A stretch of DNA of 64,000 nucleotides from Bacteroidales bacterium (lineage in GTDB: Bacteria > Bacteroidota > Bacteroidia > Bacteroidales > JAQUTK01). The number at the start of each line of letters is the position of its first letter. Position 1 is the first letter of the stretch. A program made the position numbers and the translations under genes. Shown piece by piece: positions 4,163-27,598 of the stretch. The DNA lies in the NCBI GenBank assembly GCA_028709785.1, contig JAQUTK010000020.1:1-64000 (forward strand), in the 5' to 3' direction. The notes under the pieces are model-generated. The model searched no databases and was not told where the DNA came from. It saw only the letters and a list, made by a program, of their open reading frames with translations.

Positions 4163-4234
4163 GGCCCATTCGTCTATCGGTTAGGACGCAAGATTTTCAT
4201 TCTTGAAAGAGCAGTTCGATTCTGCTATGGGCTA
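4163..4234 (+). tRNA. tRNA-Glu (anticodon UUC)
   Basis: A full 72-base cloverleaf can be drawn: acceptor GGCCCAT/ATGGGCT (first pair G-U), D stem GTC/GAC with GG in the loop, anticodon stem CAAGA/TCTTG with loop TTTTCAT (anticodon TTC at 4196-4198), four-base variable region, T stem AGCAG/CTGCT with loop TTCGATT, and discriminator A. CCA is not encoded. It lies 41 bases before rpsT and appears to share its transcript. Confidence 0.95.
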
Positions 4235-4275
4235 CAATAAATAAGAACAATAACGTTTTAAGGCATTTGGTCGAT

Positions 4276-4527: not shown

Positions 4528-4563
4528 GAAGGAAGCATCCTCTTTATTTAAATAAGCATATAT

Positions 4564-4596
4564 AGGCCATTCTGTACAAGAATGGCCTGTTTTATT
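4564..4596 (+). terminator. Rho-independent terminator after rpsT
   Basis: A perfect 10-base-pair stem (AGGCCATTCT with AGAATGGCCT) around the five-base loop GTACA, followed by GTTTTATTT. Confidence 0.9.
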
Positions 4597-4670
4597 TGCA
4601 CATATGCCTACCTTTCAAAATATCAAGCACATTTTTCACGGAGTATGCATTCCATTTCCCCGATTTTGAG

Positions 4671-4678
4671 TACATTTG
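4671..4678 (+). promoter_or_regulatory. Candidate -7 element for the gyrB operon
   Basis: TACATTTG is a perfect TAnnTTTG match, 46 bases before the gyrB start and after the rpsT terminator. The -33 region is not clear. Confidence 0.6.
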
Positions 4679-4724
4679 CTAGGTTTTACACACACAATCA
4701 AAACAGATCAATAATTAGTTCCAT

Positions 4725-6683: not shown

Positions 6684-6686
6684 AAA

Positions 6687-7586
6687 ATGATTGTACCAAA
6701 GCCCTTACAAACAGGAGACAAAGCAATTATCGTCTCCCCGGCCGGAAAGATTGATCCGGAATATGTACAAAGAGCTTCAGAACTCTTGACATCCTGGGGA
6801 CTTATTGTTGAGCAAAGCCCTGTTTGTCTGGGAGAGTACGGTCGGTTTTCCGCCTCCGCAGAAGAACGGTTGGAAGATTTGCAGAAGGCGTTTGATCGCG
6901 AAGACATCCGATTGATCCTCTGTAGTCGGGGAGGTTACGGCGTGATGCAATTTCTTGACAAACTTACTCCCGACAGTCTGTTGAAGAATCCCAAATGGAT
7001 AATTGGCTACAGCGATATTACCGCACTGCATGCGATGCTTCAGAAAAATGGTCTGGCATCACTCCATGCACCCATGGCACGACACCTCTCTTTATCCGGC
7101 CCCGACGACGTGGCTGTCAACTATCTGAAGAGCATTCTTTGGGGTAAGACCCCCGATTATACAATAGCTGAACATCCTTTTAACCAGACAGGCAAAGCAA
7201 GTGGAATACTCAGGGGAGGCAATCTGTCTCTTCTTTATGCACTCAGGGGAACCCCCTTTGACTTCGATCCGGAAGGAACTATTCTATTTGTGGAAGACAT
7301 AGGAGAAAGAGCCTATCATATCGACCGTATGTTTCAGAACCTGCGGATGAGTGGTATTTTAGAACGGATCAGCGGACTGATTATTGGTGAGTTTACAGAC
7401 TGCGAAGAAGACCCGTTTATGAAACAGAGCATCTATGAAGGAATCTACAAGATGGTTGCACCTTATTCCTATCCTGTTTGCTTTGGTTTTCCTGTGGGAC
7501 ACTCAGACAACAACTATCCCTTGCTATGTGGCAATACATCCACGCTGATCGTACAAGATGACCAGGTGATTTTGAAACAAAACTGA
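6687..7586 (+). CDS. ldcA: LD-carboxypeptidase (peptidase family S66)
   Basis: A 299-residue serine peptidase of family S66, which removes the terminal D-alanine from murein tetrapeptides in cell-wall recycling. The catalytic triad can be placed as Ser109 (IIGYSDITALHA), Glu203 (FVEDIGERAYHIDRM) and His272 (FPVGHSDNNYPL). The motifs CSRGGYG and SGILRGGNLSLL are also typical. No signal peptide is seen, consistent with a cytoplasmic recycling enzyme. It begins 3 bases after gyrB, so translation is probably coupled. Some S66 members cleave microcin C instead; the context does not separate these roles. Confidence 0.92.
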   Translation: MIVPKPLQTGDKAIIVSPAGKIDPEYVQRASELLTSWGLIVEQSPVCLGEYGRFSASAEERLEDLQKAFDREDIRLILCSRGGYGVMQFLDKLTPDSLLKNPKWIIGYSDITALHAMLQKNGLASLHAPMARHLSLSGPDDVAVNYLKSILWGKTPDYTIAEHPFNQTGKASGILRGGNLSLLYALRGTPFDFDPEGTILFVEDIGERAYHIDRMFQNLRMSGILERISGLIIGEFTDCEEDPFMKQSIYEGIYKMVAPYSYPVCFGFPVGHSDNNYPLLCGNTSTLIVQDDQVILKQN

Positions 7587-7604
7587 TAATCCGCTATTCA
7601 TCCA

Positions 7605-8618
7605 ATGAAAAGATCTGTATGCCTTACACTCCTGGCTTTTAGTCTTCACTTTTTGACAATAAGCTGTTCCATGTCCAAAGAGAAAGCCTCCGTGAAAGAG
7701 ACTCCCGGCGAAACAGCACAGTCTGTCGCCATCCAGTTTGACGCAGACAGTGCCTATCACTATATAGAACAACAGGTAGCCTTTGGTCCCAGAGTACCAA
7801 ACACAACTGCACATGTGGCTTGCGGAGACTATCTCGTCAGCAAACTCAAATCGTACAAGGCTGAAGTCATTGAGCAAAAGATGACCGTAAAAGCGTATGA
7901 CGGCACTCCTTTAAAAGCCCGGAATATCATTGCTTCTTTTCAACCGGAGAATAACAACCGTATCCTTCTGTTTGCGCATTGGGACACACGGCCGTATGCA
8001 GATGCAGACGCCGATAAAAAGAACTGGCAGACGCCTATTGACGGAGCCAATGACGGAGGCAGCGGTGTAGGCGTGCTACTTGAATTAGCCCGCCTTCTGA
8101 AAGAGAATAAGTCTGCTATAGGTGTGGACATCATTTTCTTTGACGCAGAGGATTACGGCACACCGGAGTGGCTTGATAAAGATGATGAAGAAACTGCCAA
8201 TACCTGGTGCCTTGGTACACAATACTGGACAAGAAACCCTCATAAACCAGGATACAAGGCCTCTTACGGCATCTTGCTCGACATGGTCGGTGGCACGAAT
8301 GCTACATTTCGAAAAGAACAGGTATCCATGCATTTTGCCTCATATGTGGTCAATCAGGTATGGGACAAAGCCTCAAAATCGGGTTACAGTTCCTGTTTTC
8401 TGCAATCAGAAGGTGGAGCGATTACCGACGATCATCTCTATGTAAACGAAGGAGCAAGAATCCCAAGTATCGACATCATTGACTATGATCCGGCACGCAA
8501 GAATGGATTTCCGGATACCTGGCACACGTTGGACGACACAATGAATAATATCAGCAAAGAGACACTGAAGGCCGTCGGTCAGACACTGGCCAACATTCTC
8601 TTTGAAAATAACAAGTAA
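7605..8618 (+). CDS. Peptidase M28 family lipoprotein (glutaminyl cyclase-like)
   Basis: A 337-residue exported zinc enzyme. A lipobox (LTIS-Cys21) follows a short hydrophobic signal, so it is probably anchored on an envelope membrane. Likely metal ligands are Asp150 (GANDGGSG), Glu182 (FFDAEDYG) and His307 (DTWHTLDDT), with His125 in FAHWDTRP. The WHTLDD and DDHLYV motifs resemble glutaminyl-peptide cyclotransferases, which form N-terminal pyroglutamate, more than M28 aminopeptidases. Bacteroidales export many proteins with Gln exposed after signal cleavage, which fits that role, but aminopeptidase activity is not excluded. Confidence 0.88.
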   Translation: MKRSVCLTLLAFSLHFLTISCSMSKEKASVKETPGETAQSVAIQFDADSAYHYIEQQVAFGPRVPNTTAHVACGDYLVSKLKSYKAEVIEQKMTVKAYDGTPLKARNIIASFQPENNNRILLFAHWDTRPYADADADKKNWQTPIDGANDGGSGVGVLLELARLLKENKSAIGVDIIFFDAEDYGTPEWLDKDDEETANTWCLGTQYWTRNPHKPGYKASYGILLDMVGGTNATFRKEQVSMHFASYVVNQVWDKASKSGYSSCFLQSEGGAITDDHLYVNEGARIPSIDIIDYDPARKNGFPDTWHTLDDTMNNISKETLKAVGQTLANILFENNK

Positions 8619-8632
8619 AAAAGTAAACCTAT

Positions 8633-9055
8633 ATGACTATCAACGAAATTCAAGACCAAATCATTGAAGAGTTCTCCGATTTTGACGACTGGATGGATCG
8701 CTATCAGTTATTAATTGAACTCGGCAACTCCTTAAAGCCTTTGGATGAAAAGTATAAGACTCCCGAAAACCTGATCGAAGGTTGCCAGAGCCGTGTATGG
8801 CTACAAGCAGATTATAAGGAGGGTATTCTTACATTTCAGGCCGAAAGCGATGCCGTTATCGTCAAAGGAATTGTCGCACTGTTGGTGCGCGTTTGTTCCG
8901 GACATACCCCCGATGAGATATTAAACAATGAACTCTACTTCATTGAGAAGATCGGATTGAGAGAACATCTCTCTCCAACGCGTTCAAACGGACTTCTCTC
9001 TATGGTCAAGCAGATGCGCTTCTACGCCATTGCCTTCAAAGCCAAAAGCGAATAA
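8633..9055 (+). CDS. sufE: SufE family sulfur acceptor protein
   Basis: A 140-residue cytoplasmic protein that takes persulfide sulfur from the cysteine desulfurase SufS and passes it to the SufBCD scaffold. The acceptor cysteine is Cys51 in EGCQSRVWL, at the same position as in E. coli SufE. Length fits the family. It is the last gene of the gyrB unit and lies about 19 kb from the sufBCDS operon in this window, so it is regulated apart from its partners. A terminator follows at once, inside the rnhB 3' end. Confidence 0.93.
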   Translation: MTINEIQDQIIEEFSDFDDWMDRYQLLIELGNSLKPLDEKYKTPENLIEGCQSRVWLQADYKEGILTFQAESDAVIVKGIVALLVRVCSGHTPDEILNNELYFIEKIGLREHLSPTRSNGLLSMVKQMRFYAIAFKAKSE

Positions 9056-9064
9056 AACGATAAA

Positions 9065-9712
9065 TCAAAGATGCCTGCCAACACGCAGGCATTTTTGATC
9101 TTTGAAATCTTCGGACGCAAACAAATCCGGTTGTCGTTCAAGCAACTGAAAAGTCATCCTGTGATAGGCAGTCGTACCATACATTTGAATGCCGCTGCGG
9201 TGCTTCTTAGTTGGATAACCTTTGTTATTATTCCAATCATACATCGGATACTCTTCGTGCAGACGAAGCATATAATCATCTCGATACGTTTTTGCCAGGA
9301 TTGAAGCCGCGGCAATGGAAAGATACTTCCCATCCCCTTTGATCACACACGTATGCGAAATCTCCTTGTATTTCTTAAACCGGTTGCCATCGATAATCAG
9401 AGTCTGCGGTCTGACTTTGAGCTGATCAACGGCACGATGCATCGCAAGAATAGATGCATTCAGTATATTTATTTTATCAATCTCTTCCGGTGACACAACT
9501 CCCACAGCCCAAGCCAATGCCTCTCTCTCAATAACCGGACGAAGGAGATAACGTTGCTTTTCCGTGAGCTGTTTGGAATCGTTCAGCAGTTCATTACGAA
9601 AATCTTTTGGCAAGATTACAGCAGCCGCAAAGACAGATCCGGCAAGACATCCCCTGCCGGCCTCATCACAACCGGCTTCGATCAGATCTGTATTTAAATA
9701 GGGTAATAACAT
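9065..9712 (-). CDS. rnhB: Ribonuclease HII
   Basis: A 215-residue enzyme that cleaves RNA in RNA-DNA hybrids and removes single ribonucleotides from DNA. Catalytic acidic residues are visible as Asp16-Glu17 ([11 protein letters not shown]), Asp108 (LIIDGNRF) and Asp145 (KTYRDDYM), with the [10 protein letters not shown] motif of RNase HII. The last seven or so residues (CLRVGRHL) are encoded by the hairpin that also terminates sufE on the other strand. Hemolysin III lies upstream on the same strand. Confidence 0.95.
9071..9097 (+). terminator. Terminator of the gyrB-sufE unit, inside rnhB coding sequence
   Basis: An 8-base-pair stem (ATGCCTGC with GCAGGCAT) with loop CAACAC, followed by TTTTTGATC. 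It lies between the sufE stop and the body of rnhB and encodes the last residues of the opposite-strand rnhB. Confidence 0.85.
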
Positions 9713-9728
9713 CGTTCAATTCGTTTGA

Positions 9729-10376
9729 TTACGGGATGGAGATAATTGCCAGAAAATGGCAGACGGTGCCACCGAGCACAAACAAATGCCAGACAGCATG
9801 ATTGTACAATGGTTTGCGGTTGGCGTAAAAAACCGTTCCGACACTGTAGGACAGTCCGCCAGCAATAAGCCAGAGGAAGCCATCAGCAGGTAACGCGGTA
9901 TATACCGGCTCAATAATAAAAACAACAATCCAACCCATCGCCAGATAGATGTAGAGCGACAGCTTCGGATATTTATGCCACCAAACCAGTTTGTAGACAA
10001 TCCCCAGTACGACCGCACCCCAGATGATGGAAAGAAACAAATAGTTGAGAGGTTGCTGCAAACAAAGTAACAGGAAAGGGGTGTAAGAGCCTGCAATCAG
10101 AAAATAAATGGAAATATGATCAAACAGGCGAAACATCCGCTTTAGTTCAATCGGCTTTACCCAATGATAGATCGTCGAAACACTATACATTTCAAACATA
10201 CATACCACAAAGACCCAAAGGCCCAACCGACTTCCGGAGGAAATCGCCGGATGCAACAGCAATCCGATAGCCACACACACACTCAAGACAACGCCAAAAG
10301 CATGGGTGATGCTATTGGCTATCTCGGCTTTACGGGATGGAAAAACATAAGAATCAGGAGATATTGCAAGCGCCAT
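9729..10376 (-). CDS. Hemolysin III / PAQR-type membrane protein
   Basis: A 215-residue protein with seven hydrophobic segments, of the HlyIII family (PAQR superfamily, putative metal-dependent hydrolases). Conserved His residues are seen in NSITHAFG, STIYHWVKP, FDHISIYF and the C-terminal HAVWHLFVLGGTVCHF. The start at MALAISPDS was preferred; an in-frame ATG 24 bases upstream would leave only about 11 bases between the predicted transcription start and the codon. Despite the name, true haemolysis is unproven for most members. Confidence 0.88.
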   Translation of the reverse strand: MALAISPDSYVFPSRKAEIANSITHAFGVVLSVCVAIGLLLHPAISSGSRLGLWVFVVCMFEMYSVSTIYHWVKPIELKRMFRLFDHISIYFLIAGSYTPFLLLCLQQPLNYLFLSIIWGAVVLGIVYKLVWWHKYPKLSLYIYLAMGWIVVFIIEPVYTALPADGFLWLIAGGLSYSVGTVFYANRKPLYNHAVWHLFVLGGTVCHFLAIISIP

Positions 10377-10478: not shown

Positions 10479-12185
10479 TTACTTTTCTTGTTTACTCTTC
10501 CTCTTTTGCTTTTTATCAGTAGCGTTTTTTTCAAAAAGAGGAGAAGTTACCAATGGACTCTTTTGATTGTATCTTATTCCATCTTTACTTACTTCAATAT
10601 CTTCAAGTAAGATGGAAGAAGGATATATCAATGAATTTAGTACTGATGAATGAATGTTATTGGAGAGTATCTGATCGGAGGAGATTCCAGCCATGTGTTT
10701 CAACATCTGAACAGTGATCGTCTGCGTCGTGAGTCCACGTACAAGTTGTTCACTGCCATCACTCACATTTACTTTATAATACAGACCATTACGGACAATA
10801 TATGCATAATCCAACCCTTCTTCAATCGCCAGACGAATCAAATTGTTTTTTAGTTGAGCTTTCGTTTCGCCTCCATCTGTTACATACATATGAAGGACAC
10901 CCGATCCCAAATCCATTTTTGCACCGGAGCTTTCAGCTGTTGTAATGTTATGTCCATTGGACAAGGGAGTTTTCAGGGTTGCAAAACGCCCGTTTAATAC
11001 ATTACGAAGCATTCCCTTTTCCACCAAAATTAATGTATCAGGTGGAACTACTCCTTCCGCATCAATCTCATACGTACCCCATAACTGTTTCCCTTGAAAC
11101 TCTTTCAATCCCGGTTCACTGATGATATTTATGTTGGAAGGAAGTATCCTCCTATTCATTAGATTTTCCAATGACTTTCCTTCATTATCTGTTTGGTACG
11201 CTTTATAGGCTGTTAAACCTGTTCGATATTCTAAGAATAGTCGAATAAGGCTCAAAGAATTATCGAAGAGCACCGGCCCATAATATGTCTCACTCACTTT
11301 GGGAGCACTCTTCAGCGCATAGATTTTTTGAACAACATTTTTTGCAGCTCTAATCAGAGAATCTTGAGACGGAAACAGTGCTTCATCCAACTCTTGATAT
11401 CCGATCCCTGAAGAGATTTCTTCTCCTTCTTCAGTTCGGGCAGAAGCACTTATATTCAGCGATGAAAAATCCTGCGCATTGATAACCTTACTTCCTTCAC
11501 TACTCAAAAAGTATATATCCGCGGAATTTACAGAAATCCGAGCATCACAATCAATGATATCGGGATATTCTGCAAAGACAGAAGAAACTGCATTTAATGT
11601 TTTCTCCCAATATGCTCTGCGATTAGGTTTGAATTCGATACGATGTGCCACTTTTTTTTCAACAGGTGAGATCTTTGCATAATCATCCAAGGCTTCCGTC
11701 TCTGGGGAAAGATTCATTTGTTTCAGGCTGCTCATCTTTTTATCATAATCAGTAGCGGCTTTTATATACATTTTATCGGTTGCTTGCCATAATAATCTTC
11801 TTGTTTCACTGTAGTCAAGATCATCCGGCAATTCTCCCGATTGATCGAGAAAAAAAGCAAGCATCCCTGTAAGACTGGCCATGATATTACAACGATGATA
11901 GTTACCAACATACATATCCACTCTAAAATTGTTTTTGCAATAGATATCACCATCCGTTGCAGACATGATAGCTCCATACGATGATTTAATATCGTATCCC
12001 TTGGATCGTTTAACCGTATAGGCCAAATAAAACGGTTTTTGCATCTTCGGCAGAGAGAGAGAATCCATCGAACGTTTCAGTTCATCATTCATGGCCCGGA
12101 AAAGAAGTGGTTCCACATCCTTTTGCGCACAAATGGTATATGAAGCAGTCAGCAATAGCACAAACAATATCTTTATTGGTTTCAT
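10479..12185 (-). CDS. Exported TldD/PmbA-family protein lacking the metal motif (TldE-like)
   Basis: A 568-residue protein of the PmbA/TldD modulator-of-gyrase fold, with an N-terminal signal (MKPIKILFVLLLTASYTICAQ) that predicts export. It has no HExxxH motif, matching the non-catalytic TldE half of TldD/E proteases. The C-terminal half keeps family features such as GTYEIDAEGVVPPDTLILVEKG and a conserved Gly/Ala-rich region. The C-terminus is rich in Lys and Gln. It follows its catalytic relative by 28 bases, so the two probably form one heteromeric peptidase. Substrate unknown. Confidence 0.85.
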   Translation of the reverse strand: MKPIKILFVLLLTASYTICAQKDVEPLLFRAMNDELKRSMDSLSLPKMQKPFYLAYTVKRSKGYDIKSSYGAIMSATDGDIYCKNNFRVDMYVGNYHRCNIMASLTGMLAFFLDQSGELPDDLDYSETRRLLWQATDKMYIKAATDYDKKMSSLKQMNLSPETEALDDYAKISPVEKKVAHRIEFKPNRRAYWEKTLNAVSSVFAEYPDIIDCDARISVNSADIYFLSSEGSKVINAQDFSSLNISASARTEEGEEISSGIGYQELDEALFPSQDSLIRAAKNVVQKIYALKSAPKVSETYYGPVLFDNSLSLIRLFLEYRTGLTAYKAYQTDNEGKSLENLMNRRILPSNINIISEPGLKEFQGKQLWGTYEIDAEGVVPPDTLILVEKGMLRNVLNGRFATLKTPLSNGHNITTAESSGAKMDLGSGVLHMYVTDGGETKAQLKNNLIRLAIEEGLDYAYIVRNGLYYKVNVSDGSEQLVRGLTTQTITVQMLKHMAGISSDQILSNNIHSSVLNSLIYPSSILLEDIEVSKDGIRYNQKSPLVTSPLFEKNATDKKQKRKSKQEK

Positions 12186-12213
12186 CGTTCTTCGTTTTAT
12201 TCTACTTGATATT

Positions 12214-13914
12214 CTAAGGTCTGGGGAGAATTGGAGTCATATTGCTCGACTTGGATGCTTTTTGAGTCTCTATATTTTTAATAAAGAGCTTTGGAGAGAT
12301 GGCTGTAACTGGAATTTCTCCTGATTCCGCACCACAAATCCCGGTAAAAATGCCGGATGTATCTCCCGCGTTACTAATCTGTGAGAACATGGACAAGGGT
12401 GTTCCGATTAAAGTAACTCCTCGAACAAGTTCATCCTGTCGCTCATCCGCAAAAACGCGGTAAACCTCTAACGGGGTTATATTGAATGCATTTGGTCTCA
12501 CTCGGCCGGTTTGTGTAAAGCCTCCGGATACTTTTGCAAAATAATAACCATAATCCTTGCCTTGCTTCTTTACTTCTGCTTTTAAGAGTGTACGCAGTTC
12601 GTCGTCTGTTTTAGGTGCGGTGGTCGTGACGATTAAATTGGATTGGCGTGTGACCGGATTCTTACCGGGAGCCGCTCTTCCGTGACCATTGGAAGCCGGG
12701 AAGCCGGCAATAGGAACACGAGACATCAGAAATCCTTTCAGAATTCCATTCTTAACAATTTCCACCTTTTGTGCCTTTACCCCCTCTTCATCATACAGAT
12801 AAAACCCATTCAGATCCCGGCCATTATAGGAACGAAGTGTCGGATCCATACTAACAGAAAGATCAACAGGCAACACCTCTTCGCCTAATCTCTTTTTAAA
12901 TGTCTGACCGTCAGACTCACTCTTCAGGCGCTGGCCTTCAATGCGGTGACCAAAGATCTCATGAAAGAAAACGCCGGAAGCCTCCGCTGAAAGAATGGCC
13001 GGACCGGTATAGGAATCACCAACAGGAGCGGTCCGAAGCTGGATTAGTTTTTCTGCCAGGGCACGGGTTTCCCTGAGAATAGTCTTATGGTCTGTAAGAT
13101 CATCTGGAGTAAAAGCAAAATATGAATTATACAGCGGAAGACGCATGCCATCATCAGCAACAACGTTCGCCTGAATAATTAGCCGGGCATAGCGCAGATT
13201 TTGCACAATTTGAGTTCCTTCCGTTGAAACATAATACTTACGATAATTCTCAAAAACATACTGTGCCGTCCCTGATTGGATTTCAGGATATTCCTTAAAG
13301 ATAGCGGAATATTCCTTGATCCGTTGCTCCCAAGCTGTTGTATCAAAACGCATTTGATCAGTAGTTAATCTCTTTTCAATGAATGTAACAGGTTTCTCCA
13401 TTGAATAGTCATCCGATTGATCTTCACTTTCTATACTGACTTGTGCATTTGAATTTATTTTAACAAACATATCCAGATTTTCGTTCCATGCTTGCTGTGT
13501 TCCTTTCCAAAGCGTCATACGTGTTGCGTCACCCTTTTTATCTTTGATCGGAAGCATTATATAGGTATCAAAACGATATGAATCATTTTCGTGATAACTA
13601 TCTTTCTTCAATGATCCGAGACGAACCATTGGAGTACACGCGATTTTATGAGTTCCCAGAGTCTTCTTCTGGAGACTGCCAAAACTAGCACTGGCAGATG
13701 CCGCGGAAACATCATCTACACGATAAGACATAAAATAGGGAAAAGAGCCTCCCGAAACTTTCATCTGATCATAATTCCGTCGTAGTTCACTTTGCATAAT
13801 TGAAAGGAGTGGATCGTTTGCATAGATTCCATTCGTAAATCCAAAGGAGAAAACTCCCAAGAGGACAAAGAAACTGAAAAGCCGATGTTTTATGTAGGAA
13901 TACGCTGTGATCAT
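12214..13914 (-). CDS. Exported TldD-type metallopeptidase
   Basis: A 566-residue member of the TldD/PmbA family carrying HEIFGH (HExxxH, His318 onward), the zinc-binding motif of the active TldD subunit. DEEGVKAQKVEIVKNG and the GHGRAAPGKNPVTRQSNL region are also family features. The N-terminus has a hydrophobic signal (about residues 10-32), so unlike the cytosolic E. coli TldD it should act in the envelope. It lies upstream of the HExxxH-less paralog and 55 bases after the pectin gene. Known TldD/E targets are unfolded or modified peptides; the substrate here is unknown. Confidence 0.88.
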   Translation of the reverse strand: MITAYSYIKHRLFSFFVLLGVFSFGFTNGIYANDPLLSIMQSELRRNYDQMKVSGGSFPYFMSYRVDDVSAASASASFGSLQKKTLGTHKIACTPMVRLGSLKKDSYHENDSYRFDTYIMLPIKDKKGDATRMTLWKGTQQAWNENLDMFVKINSNAQVSIESEDQSDDYSMEKPVTFIEKRLTTDQMRFDTTAWEQRIKEYSAIFKEYPEIQSGTAQYVFENYRKYYVSTEGTQIVQNLRYARLIIQANVVADDGMRLPLYNSYFAFTPDDLTDHKTILRETRALAEKLIQLRTAPVGDSYTGPAILSAEASGVFFHEIFGHRIEGQRLKSESDGQTFKKRLGEEVLPVDLSVSMDPTLRSYNGRDLNGFYLYDEEGVKAQKVEIVKNGILKGFLMSRVPIAGFPASNGHGRAAPGKNPVTRQSNLIVTTTAPKTDDELRTLLKAEVKKQGKDYGYYFAKVSGGFTQTGRVRPNAFNITPLEVYRVFADERQDELVRGVTLIGTPLSMFSQISNAGDTSGIFTGICGAESGEIPVTAISPKLFIKNIETQKASKSSNMTPILPRP

Positions 13915-13969: not shown

Positions 13970-16900
13970 TCAGAAGCGTTTGCTGCAAGGAGTAATCCGC
14001 ACCGGACCAAGGAGTCCGGAGGGAATCGTTTCCCATTTGCTGAAATCTGATTCCTGATAGGTTATACTTACAAAGTTGATCTCTTCGAAAATACGCCAGT
14101 TTACCTTGCGGCGATCATAATCAGCAATCCGGTTGGCAGGGAGATTGGAGACAATCACTTCCAGTGTATTCTCTCCTTTCCGAAGATATTTCTTGATATT
14201 GACCTCGAAAGGAACAGCAAACAATGTAGCGACCTCCACTCCATTCACACGTACCCGGGCACTCTCACGAACATCACCCAGTTGCAGAAGATAATCGGCG
14301 GCAGAAAGGTCATCCATCACAAAAGAGGTTTTATAGATACCTTTGCCCATGTTTCGCTTCAGATCCGGATTGGACAGCGTTGTCCAGGAGCAAGGCGCAT
14401 TGATCGGGAAGGTCTGCGTTATTGCCGGTTCGCTCTCCTCAAAAGACAAAGCCCATCCGCTGTTCAACTCACGCGACTCTTTGTCCGGCATCAGATACGT
14501 CCATTCATTCTCCCTGATCGTTTGATCCGTAAATGTTTTCAGGATCAAAGACTCACCGGGTTTGAGTTGGAGATAGACCTCTGTCACTCCTTTACGCGTA
14601 CGGATCTTCGCCTTTCCCGAGGTACCATCCATCGGATTAAAAAGCATCGCGGACTTCGCTTTCACAGCCAGAGGTACCCATCCATCAATCGGCTTATTTT
14701 GCAACATCGCAAGGAAATAATGATACCCGGTAGCATTCTTGCGACGAATGGCCTGCCCGCCGAGTTCAGAGACAAAAGGTTCTTTTGCCACTTTCGTAGC
14801 CGCCAGGAGCTTTTCTAAATCAGTTCCGGTCAGCACCCTTCCCTTTCCCATGTCAAAAGCAGCAACGGGTTCAAAAGACGAAGCCTCCGGAAAAGCCATC
14901 AATGTCTGTTTGAAGGCAGCAAGCCGTTCAGTCACCGCAGATAATCCCGGAACATCCGAAGGATAGTGATTCATAAAAACAATGGTCGCACCTTTTTCGG
15001 CCAACTCCTTCAGTTTGGTAAGAGTCGCCGGAGTCATCCGTTTAACGGCAGGAATAATCAGCGCCTTGTACGTAGTACCACCCACCGTCTTAATCCGTCC
15101 GTTTTCAACGGTAGCAGACTGGATATATTTGTCTGAGATATAATCTTCTCCATATCCGAGACTGCGAATATCTTCAACGGCTTTATAGAAATCAGGTAGC
15201 CGATCGCGCATGCCATGAATAACCAGCTGAAAGTAATACGACCCTTTTTGTTCGGCCCAAACATCATACACAGGAAAGTACAACAAGAAATCATTGTCCG
15301 GCGTCCCTTCTTGCAAAAAAGACTGCGTACGGGCAATGTAACGATAGAAAGCCGGTGCATCTTTCCACCAGTTATCCGTCGGCGACATATTGACAGAAGC
15401 ATAAAACCGCCATCCCGGCCATGCAGCCTCTTGTGGCGAATAAGCCGCCCCATGAAAATAGACATGATTAATGCCAGAAACAAAAGCCAGATCAATCTCC
15501 GGTTTGCACTGAGACAGCGACGTGCGGAAGTGCTCCGTAAGCCAGGTGAACGTTTCGCAAGAGGTATATTTCTTACCGGCCACATGAGCGGCAGAAGAGG
15601 CATAACGCAACGTAGCAGGATCGCCATCATTCGGACGTTTGATGCTGTCTTTGCGAAGACCCGGAATATCAAAATCGGTGATACCATACGTCTCCGTCTC
15701 GGGAATATCCACAGCCGCATACAAATCAAAGATATTAGCAGGCGAACCATGTGCCTGGTTGCGCGTCACCGTGCCATGGCGGTGCGCCCACGCATTCCAC
15801 ACGAGTGTAAAGTTGTCCATCAATATCTCGCCTATCGTCTCCCGATAGTCGGATATTACCCGCTGAGACTGCTCGGTTGCTCCTTCCGCCAACAAATCCT
15901 GGAAGTAATTCTCCAGTTTGTAGCCCCTTCTCCGCTCAAACTCTTGCAGCAACGAAGGGGTCCAGTTGGCACCATACACTTCATACGAATCATTGAACCA
16001 GTTGTGCGGATACCGTTCTTTCTTCTCACCAAAAGCCTCATCAAAACGTTGGAAGTAGTGAGTCACCGCCTCTTTATTGAGATGATCAAGCACCAAACCC
16101 TGTCCGCCGGGAGCTGCCCGCTTCACCTGTTGCAAGGTCTTGCCGCAAAACAGAGCAATCAGCTCATAGTCACCGTCTGTCGGAGACCAGTTTAACGTGT
16201 TGTCTTTGTCCACATACGAAGTCACGTCAACCGCTTTGCCGGAAGGATCATAAGCCATCACCCTTTGCAAAACCGCCACCTCTTTCTGACGGCGATCATT
16301 GACTTCTATTTTTTCGGACAGTCGTTGCCCCTTTTTCAATGGATAATTCTGAAAGATCGCTTTGGAAGCGGCATACTCCGTAGTGATATTCGGTCCGCCG
16401 AAAGGCCATCCGGTACCATTATTCAGATCCACATCCATACCAGACTTCCGACTCTTATCCTGTGTAAAAGCAACCATCTCCATCCATTTGGGTGAGAGAT
16501 ATGCGATGTTATTCGCTTCGTTATTTTTGACTCCATAGATCGGTGTGATCTCCACGCCACCAATGCCCGCCTTGGCCATTTCACCGAGGTTGTAGTCCAG
16601 TCCCTTCTCATTAACCGCACTTCCCAGCCACCACCAACGCACCCAAGGCTTTGCTTCTTTAGTTATTGAAGGCCAGTCGGTAATCTTATTCTCCATCTGC
16701 GTGAACACAACACCCTGACTATTTGTAACAGAAACCGGTTTGCCGTCATCCGTGACAATCTTCATGTTGGTCATGGTCCAGTTACGACCATAATTGACGC
16801 TACCGGCCTGTTGCGCATGAATATCCATATTGTCGAAGAAGAAATCTTCCATGTTTGAATTTTCACTTCCTGTCACCGACATCACCCGTTTGGCCGTCTT

Positions 16901-18163
16901 AATGCGGATATTAGAGAGATAGACATGGTTAAAATACGGGATGCCGCGCTCTGCAGGTTCTACTTTCGCGAGCATACTAACCCAATGATCCGGCAGCTTC
17001 TTTCCTTCAAACTCCTTGGGAAGCTCTGAGTAACTGTAAGAAGGATTCCAGTTATTGGTCGCATCAAAAGCAATACCCACTTCATCCATGGTAATGTTTT
17101 CCACATAAATATGCGAGGTCGTTCCACCGCGGGTCATCGCCGACTTCAGACGAATACCGGAAGAGGTTCCTTTCGCTTTCAGATCATGAGCATACACATA
17201 ACGAATACCCCCCGAAGTCTCACTGCCACAAGTCAGGAGTCCGCCACCAGCACGTGAGAGACAGTTGCGGATCACAATATACTCCGTCGGACGGTTGACG
17301 CGCAAACCATCAGCATCGCGGCCGGCTTTCAGGCAGAAATTGTCGTCATTGCAATCGATATCGCAATCTTCAACAAGAATCCGTGAGGAAGAATCAATAT
17401 CAACCCCATCCGTACTTGGACCATGACCCTCTATATTGTTTTGAATAACAAGTCCGCGCACAGTACAATATTCCGAATAGAGAATCTGAACCGTCCAGAA
17501 TCCCGCTTGCTGCAACGTAAGTCCTTCCAAAGTCACATCAGAAGAGTTGGATACAAGCAATGTACGCGGCCGCTTGGCATCATAATCCACAATCCACCGG
17601 AGTCCCTTGGCATCATACTCTTTACGCATGCTCCAGTAAAGTTCCCAAAACACCTTTCCCTGTGCATGAACTGTACCTTTTCCACTGATCTTTACATTCT
17701 TCGTGTTCATCACATTAATCAACGCGGAAGGCCATTTCATCTCTATTCCTGCCACACGTGTGTCTATCTCCGGATAATCCTCGATGTGTGTGCTTCCCCA
17801 TAACGTCGCCCCTTGCGAAAGTTTGAGATGCACCCCTTCTTTCAGATAGATCGATCCCGTCAGGAAATTGCCGGGAGGCACGATTACAACGCCACCCCCT
17901 TGTTTGCTGCACGCATCAATCGCCGCCTGAATAGCCTTTGTGCTCAGCACAGTCTTGCTGTCAACCGCGCCAAAATCTTCAATACGGAAGCTCTTCTTTC
18001 CTTTGGGAAGCGTTCTTGCACCCACCTCTTTTGTCCATTTCAACTCTTTTTTCCAGGAAGAAGCCGCTTCCTGCACGTTAGCAACAAGAGGAAGGGTCAG
18101 AAGTAAAGACAGACAGAGTGCCACCACCCTTGTCTGCGAACAATCATATCTTTTATATATCAT
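13970..18163 (-). CDS. GH28-GH106 bifunctional glycoside hydrolase
   Basis: A single frame of 1397 residues with an N-terminal signal. Residues about 45-485 are a GH28 right-handed beta-helix (polygalacturonase/rhamnogalacturonase type), with STDGVDID (where many members have NTD), DCNDDNFCLKAGRD, CGSETSGG and SGIRLKSAMTRGG as the active-site strands. From about residue 494 (DWPSITKEAKPWVRWWW) a GH106 alpha-L-rhamnosidase begins, with AGIGGVEITPIYG and NNGTGWPFGGP, running through a C-terminal beta-sandwich (RVNGVEVATLF). No second signal peptide occurs at the junction. It lies 15 bases after a CE12 esterase. Together these predict attack on the GalA-rhamnose backbone of rhamnogalacturonan. 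Confidence 0.9.
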   Translation of the reverse strand: MIYKRYDCSQTRVVALCLSLLLTLPLVANVQEAASSWKKELKWTKEVGARTLPKGKKSFRIEDFGAVDSKTVLSTKAIQAAIDACSKQGGGVVIVPPGNFLTGSIYLKEGVHLKLSQGATLWGSTHIEDYPEIDTRVAGIEMKWPSALINVMNTKNVKISGKGTVHAQGKVFWELYWSMRKEYDAKGLRWIVDYDAKRPRTLLVSNSSDVTLEGLTLQQAGFWTVQILYSEYCTVRGLVIQNNIEGHGPSTDGVDIDSSSRILVEDCDIDCNDDNFCLKAGRDADGLRVNRPTEYIVIRNCLSRAGGGLLTCGSETSGGIRYVYAHDLKAKGTSSGIRLKSAMTRGGTTSHIYVENITMDEVGIAFDATNNWNPSYSYSELPKEFEGKKLPDHWVSMLAKVEPAERGIPYFNHVYLSNIRIKTAKRVMSVTGSENSNMEDFFFDNMDIHAQQAGSVNYGRNWTMTNMKIVTDDGKPVSVTNSQGVVFTQMENKITDWPSITKEAKPWVRWWWLGSAVNEKGLDYNLGEMAKAGIGGVEITPIYGVKNNEANNIAYLSPKWMEMVAFTQDKSRKSGMDVDLNNGTGWPFGGPNITTEYAASKAIFQNYPLKKGQRLSEKIEVNDRRQKEVAVLQRVMAYDPSGKAVDVTSYVDKDNTLNWSPTDGDYELIALFCGKTLQQVKRAAPGGQGLVLDHLNKEAVTHYFQRFDEAFGEKKERYPHNWFNDSYEVYGANWTPSLLQEFERRRGYKLENYFQDLLAEGATEQSQRVISDYRETIGEILMDNFTLVWNAWAHRHGTVTRNQAHGSPANIFDLYAAVDIPETETYGITDFDIPGLRKDSIKRPNDGDPATLRYASSAAHVAGKKYTSCETFTWLTEHFRTSLSQCKPEIDLAFVSGINHVYFHGAAYSPQEAAWPGWRFYASVNMSPTDNWWKDAPAFYRYIARTQSFLQEGTPDNDFLLYFPVYDVWAEQKGSYYFQLVIHGMRDRLPDFYKAVEDIRSLGYGEDYISDKYIQSATVENGRIKTVGGTTYKALIIPAVKRMTPATLTKLKELAEKGATIVFMNHYPSDVPGLSAVTERLAAFKQTLMAFPEASSFEPVAAFDMGKGRVLTGTDLEKLLAATKVAKEPFVSELGGQAIRRKNATGYHYFLAMLQNKPIDGWVPLAVKAKSAMLFNPMDGTSGKAKIRTRKGVTEVYLQLKPGESLILKTFTDQTIRENEWTYLMPDKESRELNSGWALSFEESEPAITQTFPINAPCSWTTLSNPDLKRNMGKGIYKTSFVMDDLSAADYLLQLGDVRESARVRVNGVEVATLFAVPFEVNIKKYLRKGENTLEVIVSNLPANRIADYDRRKVNWRIFEEINFVSITYQESDFSKWETIPSGLLGPVRITPCSKRF

Positions 18164-18178
18164 AACAGGTATTGTTTA

Positions 18179-19477
18179 TCAGTTACCATCAGGTTTGACA
18201 GAGGAACTAAACGGAGTCGCCGGTATAGAGAAAGTATCAAACTCATCGGGATGAGCCGGATCAAACATTCGATAATCCTCACGGAGATACTTACACAAAG
18301 GAAGTTTCAGATCAGAAATACCTTTCAAGATACAATGCATGATCTGATAACCTCCATACGAATTAAAATGGGTGTTATCCGCCAGAGGTTTATCCTGATT
18401 GGGATAGGTGCCGGCAGGATAATGAACAAAAGCCAGTTTGGATTTCTCCGGACCCCATGCCTCATACAAGATCGCGCTCATGTTGGTCAGATCAATCAAA
18501 GGCACCTTTTCTTCCTTCGCCAGCAAGCGGACCGCATCGGGAAAGTCGCCGTGCGTATTAATGACTTTGCCATTCTCATCAAAACTGCGACGGTGCATGG
18601 AAGTAACAAGCACCGGAATGCCCCCCTTCTTACGAGCCTCATCCACCAGCACTTTCATGTTTGCTTTGTAGGTAGTATAAGCTCCGACACCTTCCCCCTT
18701 TTGTTTCTCGTCATTGTGTCCAAACTCGATGAAGAGATAGTCTCCCTTTTTCATCACGGAAAGCAGTTTGGCGAGCCGCTTGGCAGATACAAAGGAATTG
18801 GCTGCTTCACCCGACTCAGCATAGTTAGCAACAGCAACCCGATTGGTAAAGAAACGGGGAATCATCTGTCCCCAGCCACACCACGGTTCTTCATCCTGAT
18901 CCACCACCGTCGAGTTGCCTGCGAGGAAGAGTGTAACAAGATCTGTGGCCGGAGTGATCTCGATCCTTGCTACTGAGGGATTGACTCCATTAAACTCCAG
19001 GGTGAGTTTATTATCCCAGTTCAGCTTCGTAAACTCCCGTGGTTTGAGGCGAACCGAATCACTCTTTCCAATGTATTTGTTTCGGATATTGACGGCAAAC
19101 TCAACCGTGGTATATGCTCCGGCTTTGGTCGCAACGGATTCGACCATCAGCCGACGCGACTCAGCCTTGATTGTGGTACAAGCGTTCTTTTTGCCTCCAA
19201 TAAGCACTTTCACATTATAATTGCCTTCCGGAAGATCGACTGAAAAGAAGTAGGGTTTGCCTGTTGCAGGTGCCGTATTGAATTCATACCCGTAGCTGTT
19301 GCCGGACACTCCATAAGTACAATCGGGCGACACAATGACTGCGTTCTTTTTGTTGCCCGGTGCAGACTGATCCAATATGAATACTTTTTCATTCTTTACT
19401 GATGCTAAGCTCTTTGCCTGAGCTTCAGGGAAAAGCGCCAAACAACACAACAGGAATAGATAGAGCAGCTTATTCAT
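18179..19477 (-). CDS. Rhamnogalacturonan acetylesterase (CE12, SGNH fold)
   Basis: A 432-residue exported esterase expected to remove acetyl groups from galacturonic acid in rhamnogalacturonan. A signal peptide (about residues 1-21) and a beta-sandwich domain (about 30-178) precede the SGNH catalytic domain. Block I is LAGNSTVVDQDEEPWCGWGQ with nucleophile Ser189, block II ESGEAANS with Gly223, block III EFGHND with Asn255, and block V DNTHFNSYGG with Asp367 and His370. It is first in a two-gene unit with the GH28-GH106 enzyme and has a good promoter just upstream. Confidence 0.92.
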   Translation of the reverse strand: MNKLLYLFLLCCLALFPEAQAKSLASVKNEKVFILDQSAPGNKKNAVIVSPDCTYGVSGNSYGYEFNTAPATGKPYFFSVDLPEGNYNVKVLIGGKKNACTTIKAESRRLMVESVATKAGAYTTVEFAVNIRNKYIGKSDSVRLKPREFTKLNWDNKLTLEFNGVNPSVARIEITPATDLVTLFLAGNSTVVDQDEEPWCGWGQMIPRFFTNRVAVANYAESGEAANSFVSAKRLAKLLSVMKKGDYLFIEFGHNDEKQKGEGVGAYTTYKANMKVLVDEARKKGGIPVLVTSMHRRSFDENGKVINTHGDFPDAVRLLAKEEKVPLIDLTNMSAILYEAWGPEKSKLAFVHYPAGTYPNQDKPLADNTHFNSYGGYQIMHCILKGISDLKLPLCKYLREDYRMFDPAHPDEFDTFSIPATPFSSSVKPDGN

Positions 19478-19500
19478 GATAATAGTACTTGATTATTACG

Positions 19501-19531
19501 CAAACATACGTATTTCTTACATTTATTACAA
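19501..19531 (-). promoter_or_regulatory. Promoter of the CE12 / GH28-GH106 operon
   Basis: On the minus strand TTG (19529-19531), 20 bases, then TATGTTTG (19501-19508), a perfect -7 match 23 bases before the esterase start. No regulator gene or SusC/SusD pair lies beside it. Confidence 0.75.
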
Positions 19532-19701
19532 GAGAAAACGGCTATTTCGTTCAGAAGCAACGAAGTAGTGACATCCTCTGGAAGATTTGAGAAGGTATTA
19601 GACGCGATACTAACGGGTCAGTGGTATTCTCTTCAATTACTTCGTGGCATCTTCTTAGATTAGTACTTACAGTTCAAACTCAGAATCCGGTGAAACACCT
19701 G

Positions 19702-19723
19702 AATCGGTGTTTTAGAACAATTT
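19702..19723. repeat. 22-base direct repeat, copy 1 (left of palindrome)
   Basis: Starts AATCGGTGTTTTAGAACA and is identical over 22 bases to 19997-20018. The 5' end of this copy forms a hairpin with the preceding AAACACC. The two copies enclose 273 bases with a perfect palindrome near the centre. Confidence 0.85.
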
Positions 19724-19872
19724 GGAAAGAAATGAAAAGAGGTATGATCCGACCGGGCTGAGCGTAGAAAGAGTGTTTTTTGCCACTTTTGAAGATTTTC
19801 ATTTTTTCTATACTTCTGGTAAATAGCAAGTTATAGTTTTTAGAAATGCGACCTGATGGGTGGAAAATTTCT

Positions 19873-19900
19873 ACCTGATGAAATATATATTTCATCAGGT
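19873..19900. repeat. Perfect 28-base palindrome
   Basis: ACCTGATGAAATAT is followed directly by its exact reverse complement. Related CCTGAT motifs occur just upstream (about 19852) and downstream (about 19916). It could be an operator, a cruciform or a remnant of a mobile repeat. Confidence 0.9.
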
Positions 19901-19996
19901 TCCGATGAGACAAACGACCTGATATCTTTCCAAAAACTATTAGAAGTTTTTCGGCTCTTTTCAGGCCGTTATTTTCGAGAGTGTAGGAATATTTTA

Positions 19997-20018
19997 AATC
20001 GGTGTTTTAGAACAATTT
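19997..20018. repeat. 22-base direct repeat, copy 2 (right of palindrome)
   Basis: Exact copy of 19702-19723. Both copies are followed by a near match (GGAAA, with one extra C here), so the shared block is slightly longer than the exact core. Confidence 0.85.
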
Positions 20019-20131
20019 CGGAAATAGTATAATCTCCTTACTAATCCCTTAACTATTGAAGAATCCATTGACTACTAGAAAAAAAATAACGAAGTCTTGC
20101 ATTAAATTCGGTTTTATTCATAATGATTGAT

Positions 20132-20139
20132 TACATTTG
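20132..20139 (+). promoter_or_regulatory. Candidate -7 element for the first thioredoxin-like gene
   Basis: TACATTTG matches TAnnTTTG perfectly, 77 bases before the start codon. The -33 region is weak. Confidence 0.5.
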
Positions 20140-20216
20140 ACGCCGAAAAGAATAATTGTTTTTAAGATAAAGCTTAAATCCTTGATGTGTAAACAGTGTA
20201 AAAAACTATCAAAGCC

Positions 20217-22259
20217 ATGAAACATATTTTTAGTGCATTTATCGCACTCGTTTTAGTCTTGAATCTAAGTGCATCACCACAAAAACTTCAGAACTCATCC
20301 ACTAACCTTCCAATGACGACCAGTGATTTAAATATACAGGCTGTTTTAGGTAACTGGTATGAGCCTTCAAAGAACGAATGGACCTACGGGTTTTTTGAAG
20401 AATCTGCTATTTACGATGGGAAGTTCTGGACATACAAAGAGCTGAAAATAAAAAAGAATAAGGGTACTGCTACCCTGCAAAACGGAAATGAGACACTTCA
20501 GCTAACATTCAAAAAGACGAATGATAGCACCTTACAAATTGCATCGCGCAAACATAAAGCAATTACGTACAAACTGGCAGGTCGTACGCTTCCAGATTAC
20601 AAAACAGCTGATACAACACGCTTTGCCGACAATCATTTTGCCAGAGTAGATACAGCTTACATTACTGGATACGTAAGAAACAGAAAGAAATTGAGTCCCT
20701 TTGAAATTTCGATTAACGATATGTTAATTGGAGAAAGCGTTTCGTATTATGGCGAAGTGGATAGTATGGGACGTTTCCAGATGAAAGTGCCATTGTACAA
20801 CAGTTCGGGGGTATTCCTGGATTGGGATTGGGAATGGGAACGAATGCAACAAAGAAATGTATTGGAACCAAACGAGCACTTTTTCTTATTCTACGATGAG
20901 AATACAAAACAAACGTTGTTTATGGGAGAAAATGCCCGTATCCACAATGAATTAGCTTCGTTTGATTTTTCCGGTATTCGGGGGTATAATTATCAAAGGG
21001 GAATTAAACCGCTCGATTTCTTAACATCAAAACAGCAAGAGTACAAAAAGGCGAAAGAGTATACAAATGCGATAATTGAAAAGATGCCAAATCCTTCGGA
21101 CAAACTGCACTACTATCTTGCCAATTACAATAAATACGGAGTCGCATCTACAATTATGCAATATCGCTTTCAGTTAAACCGAAATACAAAAGAAAAGCTT
21201 CCCGATCTATTCTTAGAATATGTTCGGGACTCTTTACTCCCTAATCCTGTAAAACCGATCACTTTAACCGACGACTATTTCTCTTTTATGAGGGATTATG
21301 TAGGCTATTTCGCAGACCAGAAAGAGAATCTATCCATTCACTCAAGTGAACTGATTATACCGTTGTTAAAGAATGGGAAATTGAAATTAGACAAAGCGGA
21401 TAGTAATTTGGTAGAGTTGATTTCCGACTACTCTTTAGCATTAAAGAATAAAGCCGATACCGTCGAACTCAAAAAAATGGCGAGTAAAATTTCAGAAAGG
21501 GATTATGAAAGATATAATGAAATATTTACACAAAACAAAGAACTGGTTGAAAAAGAGATCAGTCGAATGTTTGCCGAAATGAGCTTGAATAGAGATTATG
21601 AAGGAATTAATGCAGTTACATCTGATAAGATTGTTCGCGACTATTATTTGGCTTCTGAATTATACAAAACGCTGGATAATGAACGTAAACCGATGGATAG
21701 TGAGTTGTTCAACGAGATGATAGGCCGGATAGAAACGCCCATACTCAAAGATAAAATTTTGGCCACACAGAAATTCTACAGCGAATTATCAGGCAAAAGT
21801 CTGGAACATACCGAGAGCCTTAAAAACACTGATCATTTGAAGGAAGCAAAAGATGTCGATGCCTTGTGGAAGGAACTGATCAGCCCATATAAAGGAAAGA
21901 TTATATACGTTGATTTCTGGGGTACGTGGTGCGGACCCTGTAAAATGCAGATGAAGTATGTTGCCGACATAAAAAAACAGTTTGTCGGGAAAGATGTCAT
22001 TTTCATGTATTTTGCCAATAACTCACCCGGAGAAAGTTGGGAAAATGTGATTAAAAGTTACTCTCTTACCGGTGAGAATATTGTACACTACCGTTTGCCC
22101 GATCAACAACAAGGTATGCTTGAAAAACACTTTGGGGTCAATTATTACCCGACCTATCTACTGATTGACCGGGATGGAAATGTAGTGGACAAAAATCCGC
22201 CTCGTCCGATGCAGCAAGAACAAACGATTGATTATTTGAACAACTGGTTATCGAAATAG
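20217..22259 (+). CDS. Exported TlpA-like thioredoxin-fold protein, copy A
   Basis: A 680-residue protein with a signal peptide and a C-terminal thioredoxin domain holding the redox motif WCGPC (Cys572, Cys575) and a cis-proline loop (NYYPTYLLIDRDG). It should act as a thiol-disulfide protein outside the cytoplasm. The N-terminal part has one beta-rich G-x-W unit (GNWYEPSKNEW from residue 45), then a Bacteroidetes DUF4369-like beta region and a long helical linker. Its paralog downstream is very similar, but copy A has Ser20 where the paralog has lipobox Cys20, has one rather than three G-x-W units, and keeps about 84 residues (roughly 380-463) missing from the paralog. Partner unknown. Confidence 0.88.
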   Translation: MKHIFSAFIALVLVLNLSASPQKLQNSSTNLPMTTSDLNIQAVLGNWYEPSKNEWTYGFFEESAIYDGKFWTYKELKIKKNKGTATLQNGNETLQLTFKKTNDSTLQIASRKHKAITYKLAGRTLPDYKTADTTRFADNHFARVDTAYITGYVRNRKKLSPFEISINDMLIGESVSYYGEVDSMGRFQMKVPLYNSSGVFLDWDWEWERMQQRNVLEPNEHFFLFYDENTKQTLFMGENARIHNELASFDFSGIRGYNYQRGIKPLDFLTSKQQEYKKAKEYTNAIIEKMPNPSDKLHYYLANYNKYGVASTIMQYRFQLNRNTKEKLPDLFLEYVRDSLLPNPVKPITLTDDYFSFMRDYVGYFADQKENLSIHSSELIIPLLKNGKLKLDKADSNLVELISDYSLALKNKADTVELKKMASKISERDYERYNEIFTQNKELVEKEISRMFAEMSLNRDYEGINAVTSDKIVRDYYLASELYKTLDNERKPMDSELFNEMIGRIETPILKDKILATQKFYSELSGKSLEHTESLKNTDHLKEAKDVDALWKELISPYKGKIIYVDFWGTWCGPCKMQMKYVADIKKQFVGKDVIFMYFANNSPGESWENVIKSYSLTGENIVHYRLPDQQQGMLEKHFGVNYYPTYLLIDRDGNVVDKNPPRPMQQEQTIDYLNNWLSK

Positions 22260-25291: not shown

Positions 25292-27598
25292 ATGAAACAT
25301 TGTTTTGTAGTATGTATGGCACTTGTTTTTGTAATGAATCTAAGTGCATGTGCGTCTGTTCCAAAAGAAGTTCCCCCTCAACTGCACGGTTATTGGCAGT
25401 TTAAACCAGACAATCAGAGTGGCTTGTTCGGTATGCAAGTTGGACCTAATTATGTTGAGATCAATAACCACATGATGACGGTTGACAGCATTAATCAATC
25501 GGAGAATGAATACACGATACTCTATCTGTCAAACAAAAAAGGAGAACATCTGTATTTCAAAATTAAGCAACAAGCTAATGATAGTGCTCTGTTTTACACC
25601 CCGGATGGGAAACAGCCATGGCGATGCAAGCATTTCGACCGTAACCCCAATATAGATTACCTGCCGGTAAGTGACTATTCAAAAGTTATTGTTGGGAAAT
25701 GGTTCGATAACAACAGTCGCAAAACACTTGCCATTGAAAAAGGGAAACTACTCTACGATGATAAACGATGGGATATCAATTGGCTGGGAGCGTCTATGAA
25801 ACAGGAATATCATGCATTAATCGAGAATAAAGGTGAGTATCGTCTGATTATTTTGGTAAAACAAGCAAACAATTCGTGGAATCTTACCTTTGATAATAAC
25901 TCTACCGCATTCCTTCCAATGAGTGATGACGTAGATAAATATGCTGTTTTTGGTAATTGGTATGAACCTTCAAAAAACGAATGGACCTATGGCTTCTTTG
26001 AACAATTTGCTATTTACGATGGAAAGTTCTGGACATACAAAGAACTGACTATTAAAAAGAATAAAGGTACTGCTACCCTACAAAACGGGGATGAAACACT
26101 TCAACTAACTCTCACAAAAACAGATGACAGCACCTTACTAATCGTATCGGGAAAGCAAAATGCGATTACGTACAAACTGGCAGGTCGTACACTTCCACAT
26201 TACAAAACAGCTGATGCAACACGCTTCGCCGACAATCATTTTGCCAGAGTAGATACAGCTTATATTACAGGATACATAAGAAACAGAAAAAGCGCTAAGC
26301 CCTTTGAAATTTCACTTCATGGCATGTTCACTGATGAAGATGTTTCGTATTATGGCGATGTAGATAGTATTGGACGTTTCCAGATGAAAGTACCATTGTA
26401 CAATAGTTTGATGGTATCGTTGGTTTCGCTACAAATGTATCAAACAGATGTTTTGGAACCTAACGAGCACTATTTCTTATTCTACGACGAGAACACGAAG
26501 CAAACGTTGTATATGGGGAAAAATGCTCGCATTCACAATGAATTAGCTGCGTTTGATTTTTCCGGGATTCGTGGCTATAGTATTCCGGCAGGTATTAAAC
26601 CTCTCGATTTCTTAGCAATGAGGCAGCAGCAATACAAAATTGCGAAAGAGTACACAAATGACATTATGAAACAGATGCCAAATCCTTCTGAAAAACTGCG
26701 CTATTTTCTTGCCAATTACGCTAAATACAACATAGCACAAGACCTAATGCAATTTCAATATAAATCATACAGAAATACAACAGAAAAACTCCCAGATGAA
26801 TACATGGATTATGTTCGAGATACGATGCTTGCCAATCCTGTAGCCCCAATAACATTAAACAGTGATTTCTTTATTTTTATGAGGGATTTTATGTGGTATT
26901 TTAAAAATCAGAAAGTGAGTCTATCTCTTAGCGCAGATGAAGTGATTAATGCTGTTACTTCTGATAAGATTATTCACGACTATTATTTGGCTTCTGAATT
27001 ATACAAAACGCTAGATAATGAACGTAAACCGTTGGAGAATGAGTTGTTCAATAAAATGATAAGCAGGATAAAAACACCCTTATTCAGGGATAAAATTTTG
27101 GCCACACAGAAGTTCTACACCGAATTACCTGGCAAAAGTCTGGAATATACCGAGAGTCTTAAAAACACCGATCATTTGAAAGAAGCTAAAGATGCGGATG
27201 CGTTGTGGAAGGAACTGATCAGCCCATATAAAGGAAAGATAATATACGCCGATTTCTGGGGTACATGGTGCGGACCCTGCAAAATGCAGATGAAGTATGT
27301 TGCCGACATAAAAAAACAGTTTATCGGAAAAGATGTCATTTTCATGTATTTTGCCAATAACTCACCCGAAGAAGGTTGGAAAAATGTGATTAAAAGCTAC
27401 TCCCTTACGGGTGAGAATATTGTACAATACCGTTTGCCCGATCAACAACAAAGTATGCTTGAAAGACGCTTTGGGGTCAATTCTTACCCGACCTATCTAC
27501 TGATTGACCGGGATGGAAATGTAGTGGATACTAATCCGCCTCGCCCGAGCCAGCAAGAACAAACTGTTGATTATTTGAATAGCTGGTTGTTGAAATAA
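25292..27598 (+). CDS. TlpA-like thioredoxin-fold lipoprotein, copy B
   Basis: A 768-residue predicted lipoprotein (lipobox LSA-Cys20) with a C-terminal thioredoxin domain (WCGPC, Cys660 and Cys663) almost identical to copy A. Before it come three beta-rich units that each start with a G-x-W motif: GYW (33-35), GKW (135-137) and GNW (221-223). The third matches the single unit of copy A. Relative to copy A about 84 residues are cleanly missing before VINAVTSDKI. Expected to be membrane-anchored and to work on disulfides or as a redox chaperone; partner and substrate are unknown. Confidence 0.88.
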   Translation: MKHCFVVCMALVFVMNLSACASVPKEVPPQLHGYWQFKPDNQSGLFGMQVGPNYVEINNHMMTVDSINQSENEYTILYLSNKKGEHLYFKIKQQANDSALFYTPDGKQPWRCKHFDRNPNIDYLPVSDYSKVIVGKWFDNNSRKTLAIEKGKLLYDDKRWDINWLGASMKQEYHALIENKGEYRLIILVKQANNSWNLTFDNNSTAFLPMSDDVDKYAVFGNWYEPSKNEWTYGFFEQFAIYDGKFWTYKELTIKKNKGTATLQNGDETLQLTLTKTDDSTLLIVSGKQNAITYKLAGRTLPHYKTADATRFADNHFARVDTAYITGYIRNRKSAKPFEISLHGMFTDEDVSYYGDVDSIGRFQMKVPLYNSLMVSLVSLQMYQTDVLEPNEHYFLFYDENTKQTLYMGKNARIHNELAAFDFSGIRGYSIPAGIKPLDFLAMRQQQYKIAKEYTNDIMKQMPNPSEKLRYFLANYAKYNIAQDLMQFQYKSYRNTTEKLPDEYMDYVRDTMLANPVAPITLNSDFFIFMRDFMWYFKNQKVSLSLSADEVINAVTSDKIIHDYYLASELYKTLDNERKPLENELFNKMISRIKTPLFRDKILATQKFYTELPGKSLEYTESLKNTDHLKEAKDADALWKELISPYKGKIIYADFWGTWCGPCKMQMKYVADIKKQFIGKDVIFMYFANNSPEEGWKNVIKSYSLTGENIVQYRLPDQQQSMLERRFGVNSYPTYLLIDRDGNVVDTNPPRPSQQEQTVDYLNSWLLK

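Follow-up and report, generated by a model that had tools for sequence, protein, structure and literature searches.

The question raised by this locus is whether one long reading frame that unites a GH28 and a GH106 enzyme is a genuine gene fusion and, if so, what the combined protein and its esterase neighbour would do together. The window, by which we mean the whole 64,000-nucleotide stretch of DNA that was analysed, carries the frame at positions 13970-18163 of the minus strand, with an ATG start, a length of 1397 aa and no internal stops. The encoded protein consists of a GH28 beta-helix (residues ~41-487), a nine-residue linker and a GH106 domain (residues 497-1391); its N-terminal stretch looks like a signal peptide, and none precedes GH106. 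A gene for a putative CE12-type (GDSL) acetylesterase lies on the same strand at 18179-19477 and ends 15 bp upstream of the fusion gene. A first-pass annotation had proposed a GH28-GH106 fusion with a single signal peptide, an adjacent acetylesterase, and thus three enzymes for one polymer. The intact frame and the Pfam and NCBIfam matches bear out the fusion, and the neighbour is indeed CE12-like, with matches to GDSL families and a weak one to rhamnogalacturonan acetylesterase. Judged by homology, all three enzymes would belong with those of the rhamnogalacturonan-I (RG-I) backbone. The fusion is genuine and sensible, and its parts are ordinary.

The junction might be suspected of being an assembly or sequencing artefact that unites two genes, since the assembly is a draft of 70 contigs. 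The sister genome (G001) lends the junction no support because its contig ends inside the fusion gene, 63 residues from the gene's 3' end. However, the structure of the junction makes an artefact highly improbable. The linker TQMENKITD (WPSITKEAKPWVRWWW; residues 488-496, positions 16676-16702, minus strand) was compared with the tails of unfused GH28 proteins and the signal-peptide starts of GH106 proteins. In the unfused GH106 relatives compared, a stretch resembling a signal peptide comes first and the conserved start of the mature protein, WPxx...KPWTRWWW, comes next. In the fusion this mature start (WPSITKEAKPWVRWWW) is found at residue 497, nine codons past the last GH28-like residue, so that the join is in frame and sits precisely in the gap that separates GH28 homology from the mature start of GH106. 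The linker contains no stop and no signal peptide or remnant of one, and is too short for the signal peptide of an unfused GH106. This makes it very unlikely that a stop or frameshift was missed; on the sequence, this candidate was rejected, as such an error would be expected to have kept the GH106 signal peptide. G+C content is also similar on the two sides of the junction (0.476 and 0.488), and relatives keep the GH28 and GH106 genes in the same order.

These relatives suggest a route by which the fusion could have arisen. Genome G955 (family f20, locus L109) has the gene order CE12, GH105, GH28, GH106, with 67% and 61% identity to the window for GH28 and GH106, respectively, and the GH28 stop lies within the GH106 start in an 8-nt overlap (ATGAATAA). 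In G1087 (family f59, L133), CE12, GH28 and GH106 are three separate neighbouring genes. Both genomes thus share the window's order of related enzymes; they differ from it in that the genes are separate and every GH106 has its own signal peptide, and G955 differs further in the GH105-family gene between CE12 and GH28. Adjacent unfused GH28-GH106 pairs were also found in G281 and G222, and in trees the GH28 and GH106 of the window are both placed near f20 relatives. The G955 arrangement likely represents a pre-fusion state. Since the unfused genes are already adjacent in relatives, the GH28 stop and one signal peptide, that of GH106, have to disappear for a fusion to form. The gene would have originated in this way, by in-frame joining of neighbouring GH28 and GH106 genes. 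It may be guessed that Met490 in the linker is what is left of the former GH106 start.

The GH106 half (residues 497-1391, positions 13991-16675, minus strand) is an alpha-L-rhamnosidase of the BT4145 type. Pfam places GH106 at residues 642-1184, plus a jelly-roll end, and the NCBIfam model for BT4145-type alpha-L-rhamnosidases (NF049897) matches residues 495-1391 (1401.8 bits; cut-off 1300). The match covers model positions 3-896 of 897, essentially end to end, arguing that the domain is complete for its type. The predicted catalytic and metal-binding residues are Asp725, Ser726, Glu728 (acid) and Glu870 (base), which are invariant in all 38 of the homologues compared. They align with D458, S459, E461 and E593 of BT0986, a GH106 enzyme of known structure (PDB 5mqm) in which E461 and E593 serve as acid and base and D458 and S459 as metal ligands (PMC6828813). 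BT0986 is a distant relative (183 bits by phmmer) and differs in being an RG-II enzyme with a chain of 1105 residues, longer than the GH106 domain here.

The GH28 half (residues ~41-487, positions 16703-18043, minus strand) was delimited by the PF00295 match at residues 85-362 (78.6 bits, cut-off 22.9) and by conservation within its clade. Its assignment to GH28 follows from the right-handed beta-helix profile together with the catalytic aspartates D252, D273 and D274. Its motifs are STD (250-252), DD (273-274), GSE (313-315) and RLK (338-340), and none of the 18 clade members departs from S250, T251, D252, D273, D274, S314, E315 or K340. The STD motif had earlier been taken as a hint of altered specificity. 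This reading was not upheld: the invariance of STD across the clade makes it a trait of the GH28 subfamily rather than of this protein, and GH28-GH106 fusions in family f111, built with another type of GH28, carry STD as well.

The specificity of this half is less sharply defined. The best NCBIfam model is that of BT4153-type rhamnogalacturonidases (NF049899), with 234.6 bits against a cut-off of 650, and the model for BT4155-type alpha-D-galacturonidases gives 200.5 bits, also below its cut-off. None of the curated equivalog models for BT4153, BT4155 and BT4146 is passed, which sets the clade apart from these Bacteroides thetaiotaomicron enzymes. The closeness of the two scores leaves some room for a GH28 that acts instead as a side-chain alpha-galacturonidase, as a homogalacturonan exo-galacturonidase or on RG-II, in which case the two activities of the fusion would be related and not alternating. 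We regard this as unlikely, because the clade repeatedly adjoins BT4145-type GH106 and CE12 genes in relatives, as would be expected of an RG-I backbone enzyme.

The esterase, 432 aa long, carries a separate signal peptide and matches the Pfam GDSL families PF13472 and PF00657. Its catalytic residues, assigned by sequence, are Ser189 and Asp367/His370, and S189, G223, N255, D367 and H370 are invariant in 12 of 12 homologues. All elements expected of a GDSL enzyme are therefore present, namely the serine, the oxyanion-hole Gly and Asn, and the Asp-x-x-His motif. The block I motif is GNS instead of GDS in 11 of the 12 homologues. Matches in the PDB are to YxiM (2o14) and, weakly, to Aspergillus rhamnogalacturonan acetylesterase (1deo/3c1u, 34 bits).

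The reading that we favour, with a probability of roughly three in four, is that the two genes form a compact RG-I backbone unit, in which an in-frame GH28-GH106 fusion serves as an alternating exo-enzyme on RG-I oligosaccharides and the CE12-like protein deacetylates them. The fusion protein would be exported and carry out both exo-steps. GH106 would remove the non-reducing terminal L-rhamnose from an RG-I oligosaccharide, GH28 would then release the galacturonic acid so exposed, and the cycle would repeat; the esterase would strip acetyl groups from galacturonate that block the GH28 step. In B. thetaiotaomicron, BT4145 (GH106) and GH28 rhamnogalacturonidases act successively to finish RG-I oligosaccharides once these are deacetylated, acetyl groups being taken off by the esterase BT4158 (PMC8002723). 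The window shares with the set of BT4145, BT4146/BT4149/BT4153 and BT4158 the type of GH106 and the expectation that the enzymes act in succession. It differs in that the B. thetaiotaomicron enzymes are separate proteins from a large polysaccharide utilisation locus (PUL), whereas here they are fused in a minimal cluster without SusC/SusD. The model is favoured by the GH106 score above the BT4145 cut-off, by the presence of catalytic residues in all three proteins, by the unfused clusters of G955 and G1087 and the tree positions near f20 relatives, and by the PL11, GH105-family and rhamnose-operon genes on other contigs; it is disfavoured by the low GH28 score and by the paucity of SusC/SusD in the genome. 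The architecture, the intact catalytic motifs and the gene order are established. Activity of the fusion on RG-I oligosaccharides is the most likely reading of the homology, and we infer the substrate, the alternation of the two steps, a periplasmic location and any kinetic benefit of the tether.

The lack of SusC and SusD near these genes had been considered unusual for the phylum. The lack itself is real: no SusC/SusD pair, by which a PUL would be recognized, was found among the neighbours scanned, which comprise TldD/PmbA, thioredoxin-like, FtsX and housekeeping genes. However, only two SusC proteins in the whole genome score above cut-off, and SusD-like matches also number two; all are on contig C67, and so their absence from the locus is normal for this organism. 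Other RG-I genes are found on other contigs. C51 carries a PL11 rhamnogalacturonan lyase with an adjoining GDSL esterase, C43 another PL11-like protein, C26 and C52 two strong GH88/GH105-family enzymes, and C27 a rhamnose operon (RhaT, RhaA, kinase, aldolase) together with a further GH106. RG-I genes in this genome are therefore dispersed in small clusters, and the two-gene unit of the window matches that pattern. The PL11-like lyase on C43 (genome G000, locus L111, 3-4592) is at least 1530 aa long, its gene lying at a contig end, and bears passenger-associated transport repeats (PATR) and beta-strand repeats in an autotransporter-like layout that seems unusual among Bacteroidales.

Several features of the flanking DNA can be recorded here. 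Two secreted-looking TldD/PmbA-family genes (10479-13914) lie between the fusion gene and a hemolysin-III-like gene, and in the sister genome (L061) the hemolysin gene directly adjoins the 3' end of the fusion; the pair was therefore either inserted in the window or lost in G001. On the other side lies a divergent, A+T-rich intergenic region of 739 bp (19478-20216), in which a 27-nt sequence at 19702 recurs in direct orientation at 19997 (93%) and positions 19873-19900 form a perfect 14-bp inverted repeat. Beyond it, two paralogous proteins with thioredoxin domains (680 and 768 aa; 20217-22259 and 25292-27598) flank a gene for an FtsX/MacB-type permease. The CE12, GH28 and GH106 coding regions have a G+C content of 0.47-0.49, versus 0.41 for the window, and the higher G+C of 13970-19477 possibly reflects transfer or codon usage.

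How widespread are such fusions? The genomes surveyed numbered 393 for the order, 395 for the class, 125 for family f105, 101 for f20 and 399 for f59. No other fusion of the window's GH28 clade to GH106 was found in these surveys, the three largest of which scored two candidates per genome and may have missed some fusions; a single-sequence peptide scan of genome contigs yielded one relative only. The architecture is nevertheless not one of a kind, as the surveys, which covered the order, the class and four families, led us to conclude. Family f111 has two complete genes (L058, L071) that join a BT4153-type GH28 to GH106, with contig-end pieces in two more genomes, and the f59 genus g425 has such fusions too (L135, L137). 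These proteins share with the window the domain order and a junction at the mature GH106 start; they differ in that their GH28 comes from the BT4153-type branch and their GH106 from other branches, and L058 differs also in adjoining SusC/SusD. The earlier annotation would have given way if the architecture proved common in relatives, and it does so in part: the fusions recur, though with another type of GH28. As the f111 and g425 fusions fall on different tree branches for both domains, the GH28-GH106 fusions look independent, with at least three origins.

Other combinations of these enzymes were also found, including GH105-GH106 (L059, L136, L138), GH106-CE12 (L129), GH28-CE12 (L138) and a triple GH106-GH105-GH28 fusion (L134). 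In L138 (f59, 3857-9888), adjacent GH105-GH106 and GH28-CE12 genes place four RG-I activities on two proteins. In f20 genomes, members of the same GH28 clade as the window's are joined to DUF4450 (L055 5037-7172, L056 8333-10471 and L110 12069-14042; verified with Pfam in L055 and L056), a hint that DUF4450 takes part in breaking down RG-I. A search of the open-access literature, with CAZy and subscription papers outside its scope, found no described GH28-GH106 protein. A published counterpart is Segatella copri NQ544_01830, an RG-I-upregulated GH28-GH105 tandem that likewise places pectin-backbone exo-enzymes under a single locus tag, but with GH105 in place of GH106 and within a PUL (PMC11784079).

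The variety of combinations and orders could have come about because overlapping, co-directional genes are often joined neutrally, and the fusion would then be an accident whose domains work independently on the same oligosaccharides, with no functional coupling. We consider this quite possible though not probable; the recurrent fusion of enzymes for successive bonds of one polymer suggests selection, without proving it. At the other extreme, the RG-I end might be handed between GH106 and GH28 in a processive, two-site enzyme, such multi-enzymes having evolved repeatedly in Bacteroidales and the start of mature GH106 being favoured as the site of joining; this stronger proposal is speculative and on balance rather doubtful. 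Enzymes that cut successive bonds of a polymer are natural candidates for coupling, and the interest of the fusion lies in the apparent repeated origin of its type. With several apparently independent fusions among GH28, GH105, GH106 and CE12, and with close unfused controls, the effect of tethering on pectin-backbone breakdown is directly testable, and the fusions could serve as they are as bifunctional enzymes for processing RG-I.
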